Notes under the pieces: model-generated
The model's database searches: none
The model's input: the letters and a program-made list of their open reading frames with translations, nothing else
What the model was told of the DNA's origin: nothing
Assembly (NCBI RefSeq): GCF_008629675.1
Contig: NZ_VWOX01000009.1
Span: 62,001-126,000 of the forward strand
Direction of reading: 5' to 3'
DNA length: 64,000 nt
Origin: Roseiconus nitratireducens
GTDB taxonomy: Bacteria > Planctomycetota > Planctomycetia > Pirellulales > Pirellulaceae
Program-made: the position numbers and the translations under genes
Shown: piece after piece, positions 43,103-47,969 of the stretch
Layout: each line of letters starts with the position of its first letter
Position numbering within the stretch: position 1 is the first letter of the stretch

Positions 43103-43882
43103 ATGCGAATCGCGATCTTGCTGTTGAGCTTCCTGCCGTTTCTCTACTACGCATCCAAAGACAACGCTTTTCACTTTCGCGGCCGACGGGTGACGATGGC
43201 CGAACATTTGCTGCACCTGGCAATCGGCGTGACCCTGTTTCTGGTGTTCGCCCAGGCGGTGCTGGGAAACCTGGTCCTGATGACCGTGGCACTGATACTG
43301 TTCCTGATCGCCGGTGCGGTCGACGAGTACGTTTGGCACCGCGGGATCCCGGCCGAAGAGTCAGACCTGCACGCCAAGGAACATCTCGCGTTGCTGATCT
43401 TTGTCGTCGTGGCCTTGGTCGTCGACTGGTTGGACGGCCACCAGTGGACATTGCCACCAGAACTGTCCGGACCCTTCGGCTGGGAATCCGCGATCGACGG
43501 AGCGCCACGTCCGACTCACGCACACGATTGGTGGCGAGCGGTGGCGTTCCCGGCCTTTCTGCTGCCGTATGCTTACTACGGCCTGAATGACAACTTGCAT
43601 CATTTTCGCCACCGCGCCGTCAGTTGGAACGAACGCCTGCTGCACGTGACAATCGTGCTTGCGCTGTTGACGGTCATTTCGCACGCGATCGCCGGGCACA
43701 CCTCGCTGATGCTGGTCGGACTGGTGCTGTTTCTGTCGGCGAGATCAGCGGACGAATGGATCTTTCACCGACGTCTGCATCCCTCCGAGATCGAACAACA
43801 CGCCAAGACCCACTTCGCATTTCTCGGTTTCTTGATCGCCGTCACCGCCACCGATGTGTTCGCGCGGCTGGCCGGAACCTGA
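43103..43882 (+). CDS. Polytopic membrane protein with internal duplication, possible metal-binding enzyme
   Basis: 259 aa from MRIAILLLSFLPFLYYASKD. Two halves (about residues 11-108 and 154-250) align without gaps. Each has LPxxYY, N..HFR, E..LLH, a TM, LFL, then DE...HR and HAK.H. The conserved pairs are H24/H167, E34/E177, H38/H181, D74-E75/D217-E218, H79/H222, H90/H233 and H94/H237. That His/acidic pattern within membrane helices resembles a metal-site layout, but I know no family that fits. It is the first gene of the six-gene operon that also codes for an Lgt-like protein, a ferritin-like protein and a radical SAM enzyme. Stop to next ATG is 16 bp. Confidence 0.7.
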   Translation: MRIAILLLSFLPFLYYASKDNAFHFRGRRVTMAEHLLHLAIGVTLFLVFAQAVLGNLVLMTVALILFLIAGAVDEYVWHRGIPAEESDLHAKEHLALLIFVVVALVVDWLDGHQWTLPPELSGPFGWESAIDGAPRPTHAHDWWRAVAFPAFLLPYAYYGLNDNLHHFRHRAVSWNERLLHVTIVLALLTVISHAIAGHTSLMLVGLVLFLSARSADEWIFHRRLHPSEIEQHAKTHFAFLGFLIAVTATDVFARLAGT

Positions 43883-43898
43883 CTGTAAAAGAACGTTC

Positions 43899-44666
43899 AT
43901 GGATCTTTCCATTCCCCACTTGTATCCACTTTACGCGTTGCCAGTGCTGCTGGCGCTGCTGGTGGGGATGTGGTTCCCCGTGACCGGACATTTGCGAGAT
44001 CAGCAGCTGAAACGCCAGTACTACCGCGTGCAGCTGGTGACATTCGTCAGCGCGGTGCTGGGAGCCAAGCTGACTTTTCTATTCGGTGAGTTCCTGTGGC
44101 CGCTGCGTCCGCTGGACAGCTGGGAACAGGTCGTCTATTCGGGTCGATCGATTGTGGGGGCACTGATCTTCGGTCTGTTGGGCGCCGAGTTGGCAAAACC
44201 GTTCTTCCGCTATCCACTTCCGCCCAACGACCGGTTCGCCGCTCAGTTGCCGTTTGCCTTTGCGATCGGAAGATTGGGGTGCTTGTTCTCCGGATGCTGC
44301 CGCGGCACCCCCTTTGAAAGTCCCTGGTCGGTGACGTACTCCGACGGGATCGCCCGCCACCCGGCGCCCCTCTATGAAATCCTGTTTCAACTGCTGGCCG
44401 GGTGCGTGGCGCTCTGGCTGGTCAAAAAACAACGGCTGTCTGGCTGCGTGTTTTCGGTCTATCTGATGGCGTACGGGAGCTTCCGGTTTTTCTCCGAGTT
44501 TCTGCGTGAGACGCCGAAACCGATGGGCTCTCTGTCGGGATATCAATGGTTGTCAATTCTGATGGTGGTTTTGGGTGGGATTTTTTATCGCCGCAATCTG
44601 CTCCGAAGAGAACGAGATCGGCAGACGAACGACTTGTCTGACCCGACCGTCGCCACCAGCCTTTAA
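43899..44666 (+). CDS. Lgt-like (prolipoprotein diacylglyceryl transferase family) membrane protein
   Basis: 255 aa, about 7 TM segments. Lgt-type landmarks: GRSIVGALIFGLLGAELAKP (83-101), GRLGCLFSGCC (124-134), SPWSVTYSDGIARHPAPLYE (141-160) and RFFSEFLRE (196-204). Against true Lgt the HGG loop is replaced by VGA, and a C128/C133/C134 cluster appears. So it belongs to the divergent Lgt-like group rather than being the housekeeping enzyme. Lipid (diacylglycerol) transfer or modification is inferred from the fold. The operon places it next to a radical SAM enzyme of lipid-synthase type, which makes a lipid substrate attractive. Confidence 0.8.
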   Translation: MDLSIPHLYPLYALPVLLALLVGMWFPVTGHLRDQQLKRQYYRVQLVTFVSAVLGAKLTFLFGEFLWPLRPLDSWEQVVYSGRSIVGALIFGLLGAELAKPFFRYPLPPNDRFAAQLPFAFAIGRLGCLFSGCCRGTPFESPWSVTYSDGIARHPAPLYEILFQLLAGCVALWLVKKQRLSGCVFSVYLMAYGSFRFFSEFLRETPKPMGSLSGYQWLSILMVVLGGIFYRRNLLRRERDRQTNDLSDPTVATSL

Positions 44667-44680
44667 CGGGGAACAATGGG

Positions 44681-44983
44681 ATGTCGAATCATGAAAAACC
44701 CGGTGACGGTGGCGAGCAGCGGCAAAACCGTGAACCAAGCGGCGGAAAGCAAGCTGGCGACCAGCAGGCCGCGGAGACGCCGCCCGAAAACCCGTCGCCC
44801 TATGCTCGCCCGATCGAATCCACCACGCCCGGGCCGCGGCCCCAATCCGTTCCACGGAAATCACACAGCACAGCGGCTTCGATCTTCACCAGCCTGATCG
44901 TGATCAGCCTGCTGGCCGTGGTCGTCATTTTTGGGTTGTTCTTTGGCTTGTGCGTTGCCGGTCCAGGGATACAAGGAAACTGA
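44681..44983 (+). CDS. Small single-TM hypothetical protein
   Basis: 100 aa from MSNHEKPGDGGEQRQNREPS. A hydrophilic, Pro/Gln-rich N-terminal 65 residues precede one TM (IFTSLIVISLLAVVVIFGLFFGLCVAG). Disordered cytosolic tail plus anchor; no known family. It is 14 bp after the Lgt-like stop and 1 bp before the ferritin-like ATG, so it is clearly a cistron of the operon and may act as a membrane adaptor for the soluble enzymes. Confidence 0.7.
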   Translation: MSNHEKPGDGGEQRQNREPSGGKQAGDQQAAETPPENPSPYARPIESTTPGPRPQSVPRKSHSTAASIFTSLIVISLLAVVVIFGLFFGLCVAGPGIQGN

Positions 44984-44984
44984 C

Positions 44985-45701
44985 ATGTTCATCATCAACG
45001 CCATCAAGTCGCGGCTCCACCGCGATGTGGTTGCCAACCCGATCGCTCATGGTTGGGTTCTGAATCTTTACCTGCATGGGGAACGCTACCCGGAAACGGT
45101 GTGCGATTATTTCCAAAGCGAATTTGCTCCCACGCGTGACCTGGCGGACAGCATCGACCGCCACGCATCTGACGAAGCAAAGCATGTGCGACTTTACACC
45201 CACGCGTTGACGACGATTGGCCAACCCATCGTCCCAATTGCGCCCCCGTTCGTTTTCAACGATGTGGTCCGATCCTTCACTCCGGGGACGTTCCACGTCC
45301 TACCGGACGACCCCGACGAGGTCCGCCGTTTCAAATTGGCAAACTTCATGGCCCACGCCCATTTTCTGGAGAAGCGTGTCGGTCATTCGATCGAATACCA
45401 CGCCGAAGCGTGCGGCGCTGGCGGCCGCGGTGCGGCGGAGAAATGTGTGTTCGCTGTCATGCGGGACGAAGCCCGGCACGTCGACTACACCCTGGAGGCG
45501 GTCCGCGACCTGGTCACCCGTCGACGGGCGACCGCGATCCTGGAAACACACCGGCGTGCCGAAGCCAAGGCCAATCTCCATTTTTCGCGCCGGCTGTTGC
45601 GGACGTTTCGACACCGCTTTGACGACGGGATTCGCCCTCACCAAATACTGCTCAATCGGATCTGCCAACTTTTCCTCGACGGAGCCGACCGGTTTGCGTG
45701 A
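44985..45701 (+). CDS. Ferritin-like di-metal protein
   Basis: 238 aa from MFIINAIKSRLHRDVVAN. AAGGA lies upstream of the ATG. Helix pairs carry the ligand motifs DEAKH (about 63-67) and DEARH (about 161-165), with further acidic candidates near E129. Two ExxH sites 98 residues apart are the signature of ferritin-like di-iron or mixed-metal oxygenases (MiaE- or AurF-like layouts). Probably an oxygenase or hydroxylase on a bulky substrate; soluble. It overlaps nothing and is followed after 4 bp by the radical SAM gene, which suggests stoichiometric expression. Confidence 0.8.
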   Translation: MFIINAIKSRLHRDVVANPIAHGWVLNLYLHGERYPETVCDYFQSEFAPTRDLADSIDRHASDEAKHVRLYTHALTTIGQPIVPIAPPFVFNDVVRSFTPGTFHVLPDDPDEVRRFKLANFMAHAHFLEKRVGHSIEYHAEACGAGGRGAAEKCVFAVMRDEARHVDYTLEAVRDLVTRRRATAILETHRRAEAKANLHFSRRLLRTFRHRFDDGIRPHQILLNRICQLFLDGADRFA

Positions 45702-45705
45702 CAGG

Positions 45706-47223
45706 ATGAAAATCTCGCTGCCCGTTTTGAATCTGGAATCCGCCCAGCCGTCCGATCTGCCCCTGACTCCGATTCGAACCCGCCTTCAGGGACTGAGTCA
45801 ACGCGACGTCGTGGTGTGGTTCGAATTGCGTGACAGCGATCGGCTGCTGAAGACCACGATCAGCTTATGCCCGAGTTGCCTTCGGCATGTTCCCGCCGCC
45901 GTCTACACGGCCGACGGTCGCGTCTGGATCAAAAAGCAATGTCCGGAACACGGATTGAGCGAAGCGGTCATCGAGAACGACGAACAGTTTTACTTTCTGT
46001 CTAACAAGGATTGCTGCGGGAAGCGGTATCGCGACGACCGCTTGTTGACGTTCCCGACCTACCAGACGGGCTGCTGCGGCGGCGACCAGACCTGCGGAGA
46101 CGGCCCGGCAAACGCCAGCGATCCGCGATTCCCGTGGACCGACCAGTCCCAAAACAAGAGTTGCACGGTGCTGGTCGAAATCACCAACGCATGCAACCTG
46201 AGTTGCAAGGTTTGCTACAGCGACGCCCGCGGCGATCGGGTCCTGTCACTGGACGCGTTTCGGTCTTACATGACGCAGTTGATCCACGAAAAGAACGGCT
46301 TGGACTCTGTTCAATTGACCGGTGGTGAAGCGTTGCTGCACCCGCAGTTTTGGGAAATGATCGGCTTTTTGAATGATCAACCGGGAGTGCGAAAGATCTA
46401 CCTGCCCACCAACGGACTGCTGCTCGATCGTCCGGAAGTCGCCCAACGACTGGTACCGTTTCGTGACAAGTTGATGGTGCTGCTGCAGTTCGATGGCCAC
46501 TCGGCCGACGCCAACCTCAATCTGCGTGCCGCAAACCCGACGCATGTTCGTGAAAGGGTGATCCAGCGGCTGGAAAAGTTGGGGATCGTCATGCAACTGA
46601 CCATGACGCTGACTCGAGGTGTCAATGACGCTGAAGTCGGCTGGGTGATCGACACCGCCATGCGTCACTCCCATATCAAGTTGGTCGCGTTGCAGCCGGT
46701 AACCTACTCGGGACGTTACCAGCTGGCGCGAGAACCAATCGATCGATTGACTTTGTCGGACGTGGTGAAGTGCGTGACGAGCCAGGCAGCAACGCGGATC
46801 CGTGACCAGGATTTCGTCCCCATCCCGTGCAGCCATCCCAACTGCGGATGGTTGACGTTGTTCGTCCGGCGTCGGGCATTGAAATTCAACGTCACGCGAC
46901 ATGTCGATTTGGCCCGCGTGACCGAACAGGTCGCCTACAAAACCATCTTGGATCGGTCCCAGATTCGCAAGATGGTGGGATCCTCACGCCCGCAGTGGGG
47001 CAGCCGATTGCTCGGTGCGATCGGACGCCGACTGGTTCGACCAACGGACCTGTTCGGGATTGCGATCAAGCCCTTCATGGACTGCTACAACTATGACCAG
47101 GATCGGATCGCCAACTGCTGCCATCACTTGATGGACACCCACGGTCGCGCCGTTTCGTTTTGCGAGTACAATGCGCTGCTTCGTGAGCGAGATCCCTGGT
47201 CGGATCGTCCACGATTGGAATAA
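45706..47223 (+). CDS. Radical SAM enzyme of the MJ0619/tetraether lipid synthase type
   Basis: 505 aa from MKISLPVLNLESAQPSDLPL. The N-terminal Cys domain has C55-x2-C58 (CPSC) and the CPEHG at C79. The SAM cluster is C163-x3-C167-x2-C170 (CNLSCKVC), with GGE at 206-208. The C-terminal half has C375/C380 (CSHPNCG) and the C460...C471/C472 segment FMDCYNYDQDRIANCCHH, features of the MJ0619-like group, which includes methanogen pterin methyltransferases and archaeal tetraether lipid synthase (Tes). So extra iron-sulfur clusters are expected. The frame is open far upstream, but the ATG four bases after the ferritin-like stop is the natural start. Confidence 0.88.
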   Translation: MKISLPVLNLESAQPSDLPLTPIRTRLQGLSQRDVVVWFELRDSDRLLKTTISLCPSCLRHVPAAVYTADGRVWIKKQCPEHGLSEAVIENDEQFYFLSNKDCCGKRYRDDRLLTFPTYQTGCCGGDQTCGDGPANASDPRFPWTDQSQNKSCTVLVEITNACNLSCKVCYSDARGDRVLSLDAFRSYMTQLIHEKNGLDSVQLTGGEALLHPQFWEMIGFLNDQPGVRKIYLPTNGLLLDRPEVAQRLVPFRDKLMVLLQFDGHSADANLNLRAANPTHVRERVIQRLEKLGIVMQLTMTLTRGVNDAEVGWVIDTAMRHSHIKLVALQPVTYSGRYQLAREPIDRLTLSDVVKCVTSQAATRIRDQDFVPIPCSHPNCGWLTLFVRRRALKFNVTRHVDLARVTEQVAYKTILDRSQIRKMVGSSRPQWGSRLLGAIGRRLVRPTDLFGIAIKPFMDCYNYDQDRIANCCHHLMDTHGRAVSFCEYNALLRERDPWSDRPRLE

Positions 47224-47258
47224 ACGACCCGCGCCCGCTGGATAAGTTTCGCCTTGTC

Positions 47259-47969
47259 ATGAAACCGATCGTACAGATTTCTCTTGACGTCACTGAGATT
47301 ACCGAAGCCATTGAACTGGCCGAAATGGCAATGCGCTCCGGCGTGGATTGGTTGGAAGCCGGGACTCCGTTGATCATTGCCGAAGGCATGCATGGCGTTC
47401 GGGCACTTCGCGAACGATTCCCCGACGTCCCAATCGTCGCGGACCTGAAGACGATGGACGGCGGCTACCTGGAAGCGGAACTGATGGCCAAGGCCGGCGC
47501 GACCCACGTGGTGGTGATGTCGCAGGCCCACGACGAAACCATCAAGTGTGTGGTCCAAGCCGGAAAGGATTTTGGCGTCCGCGTGATGGGAGATAACCTG
47601 GCCAGCGAAAACATGGTGGACGGAGCCAAAAAGCTGGCCGATCTGGGATGCGATTTCGTGATCCATCACATCGGGTACGACGAGCGGCGTGGAATCGCCG
47701 CAGCCGGAGGACGATTCCCGAGCCCTATGGACCAACTGCGGGAGGTCGTCGCGGCGGTTCCCGTCCCGGTGCAAGCCGTCGGCGGCCTGTCCATTCAGCA
47801 GGCGATCCAGACGCCGCGTTATGGAGCCCCGCTGGTCGTTTTGGGCGCTCCGCTGACGATCGACGCCGACAGTTTCCAGACCGCCAGCGGCGACGTCGAA
47901 GGCGCCCTGCGTGAAATCTGCCAGCAGGTTCATGGCCACGGCGAAGTGCCGGTCGGCGGAACCGAATGA
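47259..47969 (+). CDS. 3-hexulose-6-phosphate synthase
   Basis: 236 aa. HUMPS/OMP-decarboxylase barrel with the ADLKTMDGG signature (D62, K64, D67) and HHIGYDERR later, typical of HPS. It condenses formaldehyde with ribulose 5-phosphate, or runs in reverse to make ribulose 5-phosphate in some lineages. It follows the radical SAM gene by 35 bp and ends the operon. Planctomycetes carry tetrahydromethanopterin-linked C1 genes, so a link with the pterin-methyltransferase reading of the radical SAM enzyme is possible. No phi (isomerase) gene is seen next to it. Confidence 0.87.
   Translation: MKPIVQISLDVTEITEAIELAEMAMRSGVDWLEAGTPLIIAEGMHGVRALRERFPDVPIVADLKTMDGGYLEAELMAKAGATHVVVMSQAHDETIKCVVQAGKDFGVRVMGDNLASENMVDGAKKLADLGCDFVIHHIGYDERRGIAAAGGRFPSPMDQLREVVAAVPVPVQAVGGLSIQQAIQTPRYGAPLVVLGAPLTIDADSFQTASGDVEGALREICQQVHGHGEVPVGGTE

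Follow-up and report, generated by a model that had tools for sequence, protein, structure and literature searches.

What are six closely packed genes of Roseiconus nitratireducens, encoding among others an Lgt-like membrane protein, a ferritin-like protein and a radical S-adenosylmethionine (SAM) enzyme, likely to modify? The genes, here named A to F in order, lie on the + strand at positions 43103–47969 of a 64,000-nucleotide stretch of the 8.2 Mb genome (contig NZ_VWOX01000009.1, positions 62,001 to 126,000; the window). An earlier note on this DNA described a six-gene operon with a Tes/MJ0619-type radical SAM enzyme and proposed that it modifies membrane lipids by oxygenase and radical steps. 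Our analysis suggests, with a probability of roughly 0.47, that A to E are one version of a widespread cassette that serves, through B and E, to modify small membrane proteins carrying a cysteine, with D and A as putative oxidising additions. The six + strand genes and their gaps of 16, 14, 1, 4 and 35 bp were confirmed on the sequence, and the features discussed below are the following.

43103–43882, + strand: gene A, 259 aa, two-repeat membrane protein, possible membrane diiron protein
43899–44666, + strand: gene B, 255 aa, Lgt-like (PF01790) paralogue
44271–44273, + strand: codon of B R125 (E. coli Lgt Arg143), aligned in 85/85 Lgt-like sequences
44484–44486, + strand: codon of B R196 (E. 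coli Lgt Arg239), aligned in 85/85 Lgt-like sequences
44681–44983, + strand: gene C, 100 aa, small protein with one transmembrane (TM) segment, probable substrate
44951–44953, + strand: codon of C Cys91, at the presumed outer TM end, 9 residues from the C-terminus
44985–45701, + strand: gene D, 238 aa, ferritin-like, predicted MiaE/ADO-like diiron fold
45706–47223, + strand: gene E, 505 aa, radical SAM enzyme of the Tes/TrsS group
45868–45951, + strand: E residues 55–82, C-X2-C-X20-C-X2-H, the rubredoxin-like site of Tes
46192–46215, + strand: E residues 163–170, CX3CX2C radical SAM cluster motif
47259–47969, + strand: gene F, 236 aa, HPS/OMPdecase family, a neighbour only

The operon proper is A to E, which is also present in another planctomycete and in three proteobacterial metagenome-assembled genomes (MAGs). 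Matches to D (E-value < 0.001) occurred in 6 of the 392 genomes of the phylum, the window's own included; the only other close one was in G297, from another family (54% identity), the remaining four showing 21–32%. There (locus L095), D adjoins E (60% identity), B (51%), two single-repeat A genes and a 41-aa C. E alone was the query for our scans of 80 related genomes and of the phylum, and named genomes were scanned with an alignment of 15 proteins, 14 of which have an Lgt-like gene at the locus, a choice that may favour such relatives; loci were taken from the best 80 of 528 matches of this second scan. Among them, E was found at 50–54% identity in a Woeseiaceae MAG (L135) and two proteobacterial MAGs (L136, L137), the next best being at 35%. 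All three contain B, a C-like gene and D in the order of the window, with A upstream, recognised in L135 from its position and a shared motif rather than by BLAST, and FA_hydroxylase genes adjoin these operons (two in L135, one each in L136 and L137). A to E are therefore kept in all five loci found with E at least 50% identical (window, G297 and L135–L137), and their recurrence in four other records is more than chance. As had been proposed, the Lgt-like, ferritin-like and radical SAM genes belong together, a neighbourhood search having found co-occurrence rather than homologues that never co-occur.

The sixth gene does not share this conservation. F matches PF00215 (OMPdecase/HUMPS; 75.8 bits, cut-off 27) and obtains 144.3 bits with the curated HPS model TIGR03128, below its cut-off of 200. 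Since our searches turned up no F homologue next to any of the other four A–E operons, we rejected F as a member, and the operon of the earlier note is reduced to its first five genes.

Beyond these close relatives, genes of the E and B types are conserved together in many phyla, where one to four predicted small Cys membrane proteins often accompany them. The Lgt-like gene often adjoins the radical SAM gene, in either order, along with small membrane proteins carrying a Cys at the TM end. In the named-genome loci, it lies within about 4 kb of the radical SAM gene in Lacinutrix, Tenacibaculum, Winogradskyella, Lewinella, Botrimarina, Roseibacillus, Paenibacillus, Ktedonosporobacter and an acidobacterial MAG, among others, taxa whose names we take to span at least six bacterial phyla. 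Where loci lacked annotation, genes were called from codon usage, with starts sometimes misplaced and tiny open reading frames (ORFs) missed.

Co-occurrence was also evident among the 80 relatives, 27 of which contain an E-type gene (E-value < 1e-25). A second Lgt-like gene, sorted from the canonical one on match length and open frame, was found in 25 of these 27 and in 3 of the 53 negative genomes (Fisher 2.8e-15, a p-value that overstates independence because the genomes are related); within the genus, the counts were 6 of 7 and 0 of 7. The exceptions are G008 and G029, positive for the radical SAM gene and lacking a second Lgt-like gene, and G020 (where it is the only match), G022 and G045, with the opposite pattern. 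In 7 of the 25 (G063, G023, G041, G044, G032, G009 and G030) the Lgt-like gene lies apart from the radical SAM gene, so the association does not rest on adjacency alone.

We then placed these counts on a quick LG+G4 tree of the radical SAM proteins (127 rows after removal of near-copies, 142 before), in which the window E groups with L095, L135, L136 and L137 (Shimodaira–Hasegawa-like approximate likelihood ratio test, 100). Outside the Tes clade there are 118 rows, comprising 87 with a same-strand Lgt-like gene within 4 kb, 20 without, and 11 edge rows, which lie near the end of the analysed stretch, not always of the contig. Leaving out a 7-row fatty-acid-type clade (six without an Lgt-like gene, one edge), the E clade has such a gene in 87 of 101 evaluable loci, window included, as against 0 of 6 evaluable rows in the fatty-acid-type clade and 0 of 3 in a 9-row clade with two true archaeal Tes, where only three rows could be evaluated. 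Among the 14 E-clade rows lacking a close Lgt-like gene, six come from genomes with one elsewhere (L034, L043, L045, L049, L053, L057), three have a methyltransferase context (L102, L139, L141) and five are unexplained (L145, L166, L168, L184, L203).

The methyltransferase neighbourhood is a third context of the E-type group. Here, in bacterial and thaumarchaeal loci, the gene after an E relative that has no Lgt-like gene nearby encodes a methyltransferase beginning with a CCAxFYxxD...HPGG-like sequence (L138, L139, where it is one gene further, L141, L155, L157, L159, L169, L181, L194), or, in L102, there is a CobW-methyltransferase fusion; Pfam was checked for L102, L139 and L159. Another set of E relatives (L127, L128, L129, L133) forms a separate clade, often with several copies per locus, whose neighbours look by eye like ketoreductase, acyl carrier, nitroreductase and hotdog proteins. 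L058, outside the tree and with only a ketoreductase-like neighbour, was grouped with these L127-type loci, which possibly represent an unusual fatty-acid or polyketide cluster.

The sequence of E narrows its affinities. It matches PF04055 and the HMPTM zinc ribbon PF23545, presumably named after hydroxymethylpterin dimethyltransferase, and its best curated models are TrsS (NF045646, 215 bits, cut-off 490) and Tes (NF045702, 198.2 bits, cut-off 450). The Tes/MJ0619 label of the earlier note is supported insofar as E scores with Tes and TrsS, and we rejected its assignment to either since neither curated cut-off is reached. Outside the two, the best models are MoaA (54.9 bits) and ScmF (52.8 bits); as all other models lie far below Tes and TrsS, E does not belong to the radical SAM peptide maturases. 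Ten relatives of E obtained 188–388 bits with TrsS, all below 490, TrsS being the best model for nine and Tes for L127, whereas archaeal Tes of two genomes score 690–698 bits on the Tes model. Both the C-X2-C-X20-C-X2-H site (C55, C58, C79, H82) and CX3CX2C (C163, C167, C170) are present in E. The three Cys and one His of the N-terminal auxiliary cluster of Tes are not: this stretch is rearranged (CC..C) and the last Tes Cys aligns to Thr, in a gapped region where placement is approximate. Additionally, Cys375 occupies a position where two aligned Tes have Ser. PADLOC also gave viperin matches for E (38.5 and 29.1 bits), which fall well short of those to Tes and TrsS and were set aside as general radical SAM likeness.

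B is a member of PF01790 (LGT; 116.3 bits, cut-off 24.9), and the genome contains a separate, longer housekeeping-type Lgt besides it. R125 and R196, the equivalents of E. coli Lgt Arg143 and Arg239, and Lys100 are conserved in 85 of 85 cassette Lgt-like proteins. When the solved E. coli Lgt chain was aligned to B, the matched arginines were at 144 and 240, so the numbering of that chain runs one ahead. Arg143 and Arg239 are reported to be essential (PMC4728403).

Several further observations concern Lgt-like genes. The housekeeping-type Lgt (L001, G000:C64:503467-504447) has a long mid-protein insert and also a GCxxxGCC motif; because it shares this motif with B, we rejected GCxxxGCC as a cassette signature. 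A lipoprotein-like gene neighbours the unlinked Lgt-like gene in G022 and at a second G037 locus. In L262:7396-8843 and L265:6809-8412, with no radical SAM gene in the stretch, the Lgt-like gene directly follows a lipoprotein-like gene (..LGLMACVNHP.. and ..LGLTACVKHP.., respectively), an arrangement that fits an Lgt paralogue with a private substrate. In many planctomycete loci (L035, L046, L047, L051, L104, L111, L112, L120 and others), the Cys-TM or radical SAM genes are immediately preceded by the gene for a conserved membrane protein that starts with a QWFIVxRWQ-like sequence.

The probable target of B and E is C, which carries the shared Cys; the earlier note overlooked this role, as it did the spread of the Lgt-like, radical SAM and Cys-protein set across many phyla. 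As read from its sequence, C has a single hydrophobic segment near the C-terminus. In all five A–E operons it ends in such a segment, and its Cys lies between 2 and 9 residues from the C-terminus (the ends are FFGLCVAGPGIQGN, LAGMCGLSFR, VFGVCLLG, MFALCGA and IVAVCGSH). In four of the five, positive residues precede the segment, so the Cys there should be on the outer side. Small membrane proteins beside cassette genes show a similar pattern: 75 of 118, from 54 loci, fall into one loose group (single linkage, no low-complexity masking; 37 of the 118 in groups under four), with Cys at 92% in its top column and 73% in the next best. A TM-end Cys occurs in 116 of 135 small membrane ORFs near the cassette genes, compared with 95 of 194 distant ones of the same loci, and among proteins of up to 180 aa, 53 of 83 near ones versus 23 of 94 distant ones have their last Cys no more than 14 residues from the C-terminus. 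Near the genes, Cys favours the outer TM end (110 versus 47 of 272 segments); in distant control genes, the corresponding counts are 69 versus 48 of 257. The window C is a local member of this loose putative family of small membrane proteins with Cys at the TM end.

Tandem copies of Cys-TM genes, as expected of substrates, were found in L214 (four) and in L198, L188, L049 and L195 (three each). Flavobacterial examples of C-type proteins, including the three of L195, have 65 to 68 aa and GLGICGSML-like ends. No family was common to most of 63 C-type proteins (61 chosen from 114, plus those of the window and L137) compared with Pfam and NCBIfam; DUF4064 matched 6 of the 63, and zinc-ribbon families a few. 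We also observed that many C-type proteins start with a zinc-ribbon CPECG..CWLC-like head before the TM segments (L035, L039, L047, L112, L188), and that others in the same set have an NPYxxP stretch in that position.

A and D, which like C gave no meaningful match to any Pfam or NCBIfam model, are candidate diiron proteins. The two repeats of A can be aligned to one another and to five single-repeat relatives (one each in L135, L136 and L137, two in G297/L095), leaving D20, H24, R28, E34, H38, D74, E75, H79, E86 and H90 invariant in the spacing DxxxH, ExxxH, DExxxH, ExxxH. Eight of these (D20, H24, E34, H38, E75, H79, E86, H90) could bind two metal ions; a fold search with the predicted model (predicted local distance difference test, pLDDT, 71; predicted template modelling score, pTM, 0.50) gave no match below an E-value of 0.5. 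D carries DEAKH and DEARH, and E33, ExxH 64–67, E129 and ExxH 162–165 are invariant in the four aligned sequences. The top structural matches to its model (pLDDT 85.9) are proteins like aldehyde-deformylating oxygenase (ADO) and MiaE, with Z about 16 and 11–16% identity, other ferritin-like families ranking lower. D is, however, a helical bundle, and its Foldseek matches were weak, all with E-values above 0.03 (best 0.037, a de novo protein; MiaE second); a PDB sequence search gave nothing useful. D is tentatively predicted to have a MiaE/ADO-like ferritin fold.

How might these proteins work together? The Cys that Lgt modifies sits where an in-to-out membrane helix reaches the outer side. C has a C-terminal geometry like that of such a target, so the simplest reading is that B lipidates C. 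C would insert N-in/C-out, placing its Cys on the outer side of the inner membrane, the site at which Lgt encounters a lipobox Cys. B would then move a diacylglyceryl or similar lipid unit from a phospholipid onto this Cys, there being no signal peptide to remove. E, which is presumably a cytosolic enzyme with a build like that of tetraether synthase, may alter lipid chains, as it resembles an enzyme that attacks them; its radical reaction, for instance C–C coupling, could be directed at the chains of the donor lipid, at those carried by lipidated C, or at C itself. D, a predicted soluble MiaE/ADO-like protein, would oxidise the chain, and A, with its paired D/E-x3-H motifs, probably would too, a role that fatty-acid hydroxylases may share in the proteobacterial versions. 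We infer the lipidation and every radical or oxidative step from sequence comparison. The gene set in question occurs in at least six bacterial phyla, the variant of the window having diiron-type proteins added. The most specific form of the idea, in which the C-terminal TM Cys is S-lipidated by the Lgt paralogue and the chains are then joined or rebuilt by the Tes-like E, giving uncleaved lipoproteins and a new class of modification, is tentative and, on present evidence, rather doubtful.

Several results weigh against a cassette that modifies small Cys-bearing membrane proteins. B falls short of both Lgt equivalogs (TIGR00544, 63.8 of 118.9 bits; NF000778, 86.2 of 334), and the position of E. 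coli Lgt Asn146 is a Cys in 84 of 85 cassette Lgt-like proteins. The window C has neither an N-terminal lipobox signal peptide nor a lipobox around its Cys, which stands in FGLC, tested against the consensus [LVI][ASTVI][GAS]C, and the G297 C could, judged by its charges, be oriented either way. About half of the distant small membrane ORFs (the 95 of 194 above) also have a TM-end Cys. A Cys-TM gene was picked up automatically in only 69 of 110 loci; this count leaves out some, among them the tiny C of G297 and that of L137, and may include others by chance. In the stretches that we read, no Cys-TM gene adjoined the Lgt-like genes located away from the radical SAM gene, and FA_hydroxylase had no match in the genome of the window.

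The lipid modification proposed by the earlier note can also be taken literally, with E coupling or altering free lipid chains, D, A and FA_hydroxylase oxidising them, B remodelling or making the lipid substrate, and C as a scaffold. Oxygenase and radical steps on lipid chains are reasonable, because FA_hydroxylase genes adjoin the three proteobacterial versions and D has its predicted fold; E is Tes-like with a rubredoxin-like site, and some of its relatives sit in fatty-acid-type clusters. Nevertheless, we regard bulk lipid as an unlikely target: the highly conserved Cys and tandem copies of the C proteins would be left unexplained, E is under the Tes cut-off with different auxiliary ligands, and Lgt modifies protein. 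Given the shared Cys of C and the multi-phylum set of Lgt-like, radical SAM and Cys-protein genes, a protein-bound lipid or C itself is the likelier target.

C might instead be a ribosomal membrane peptide that E modifies directly, for example with a thioether at the Cys, B being a scaffold or a later tailoring enzyme. Small, variable, tandem C genes with a conserved Cys beside a radical SAM gene are what such a system would look like, whereas the models with which E scores are Tes and TrsS rather than peptide maturases, E presumably works in the cytosol and the Cys presumably lies at the outer membrane face, and no leader peptide or exporter was noticed, without a search aimed at them. We therefore consider peptide maturation improbable as well. 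A membrane redox or metal complex built from the C cysteines, B and A/D, for which E makes a cofactor, appears quite improbable: the Cys-rich GCxxxGCC of B, the zinc-ribbon heads of some C proteins and the diiron-type D and A would suit it, but C has a single well-conserved Cys column, the GCC motif is also in the housekeeping-type Lgt, and no electron-transfer genes were noticed in the cassette. Finally, the C1/pterin chemistry fed by HPS that the earlier note gave as its alternative is very improbable and finds no support, although F is next in line 35 bp on and the zinc ribbon of E bears a pterin name: F was not found beside the other four A–E operons or at the other loci searched, and the Lgt-like and Cys-TM partners would be unexplained.

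The cassette that would modify small Cys-bearing membrane proteins looks widespread and unstudied in bacteria. We found no account of it in the open-access literature searched, mostly by title and abstract start, and no description in Pfam or NCBIfam, every cassette radical SAM protein scanned scoring below the TrsS and Tes cut-offs. If the proposal is true, bacteria have an unrecognised route to chemically modify membrane proteins, and Lgt-type modification would extend beyond classical lipoproteins.

Among known systems, E is close to Tes/GDGT-MAS (MJ0619; 7tol; phmmer E-value 9.5e-45), with which it shares the radical SAM core, the rubredoxin-like site and a C-terminal Cys region; PMC9433317 gives the motif of that site as C-X2-C-X20-C-X2-H. 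E differs in reaching 198 of 450 bits, in its altered N-terminal auxiliary ligands and in Cys375 for Ser, and Tes falls outside the E clade, whose context is one of bacterial Lgt-like and Cys-protein genes. TrsS, a radical SAM (seleno)protein family (NF045646), is the best NCBIfam match of E, yet E and its relatives remain below the 490-bit cut-off; TrsS is named a single time in PMC13188914, among other selenoproteins. Bacterial Tes homologues (456 retrieved) have been proposed as possible makers of membrane-spanning lipids (PMC8941075). The E relatives described here, which may overlap with those 456, mostly have an Lgt paralogue and often a Cys membrane protein instead, and should our interpretation hold, E-type genes would need care if used as markers of bacterial tetraether lipids. 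D may share with MiaE and ADO a fold, as predicted (best Z about 16), and the E/ExxH/E/ExxH residue set, and differs from them in its low identity (11–16%), lack of a family match and Foldseek E-values above 0.03. B resembles Lgt in its PF01790 family and in keeping both essential arginines, but it is a paralogue besides the genome's own Lgt, and its partner has a C-terminal TM Cys in place of an N-terminal lipobox signal peptide. The MYXO-CTERM/JDVT-CTERM (myxosortase) systems, as presented in PMC11980579, likewise place a Cys next to a C-terminal TM segment and pair an enzyme with a single target gene, whereas their TM orientation is opposite, their enzyme is a protease instead of a radical SAM protein and their secreted targets are larger. 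The Lgt-like lipidation proposed there for MYXO-CTERM proteins is the nearest published idea that we met to the modification that we envisage for C.

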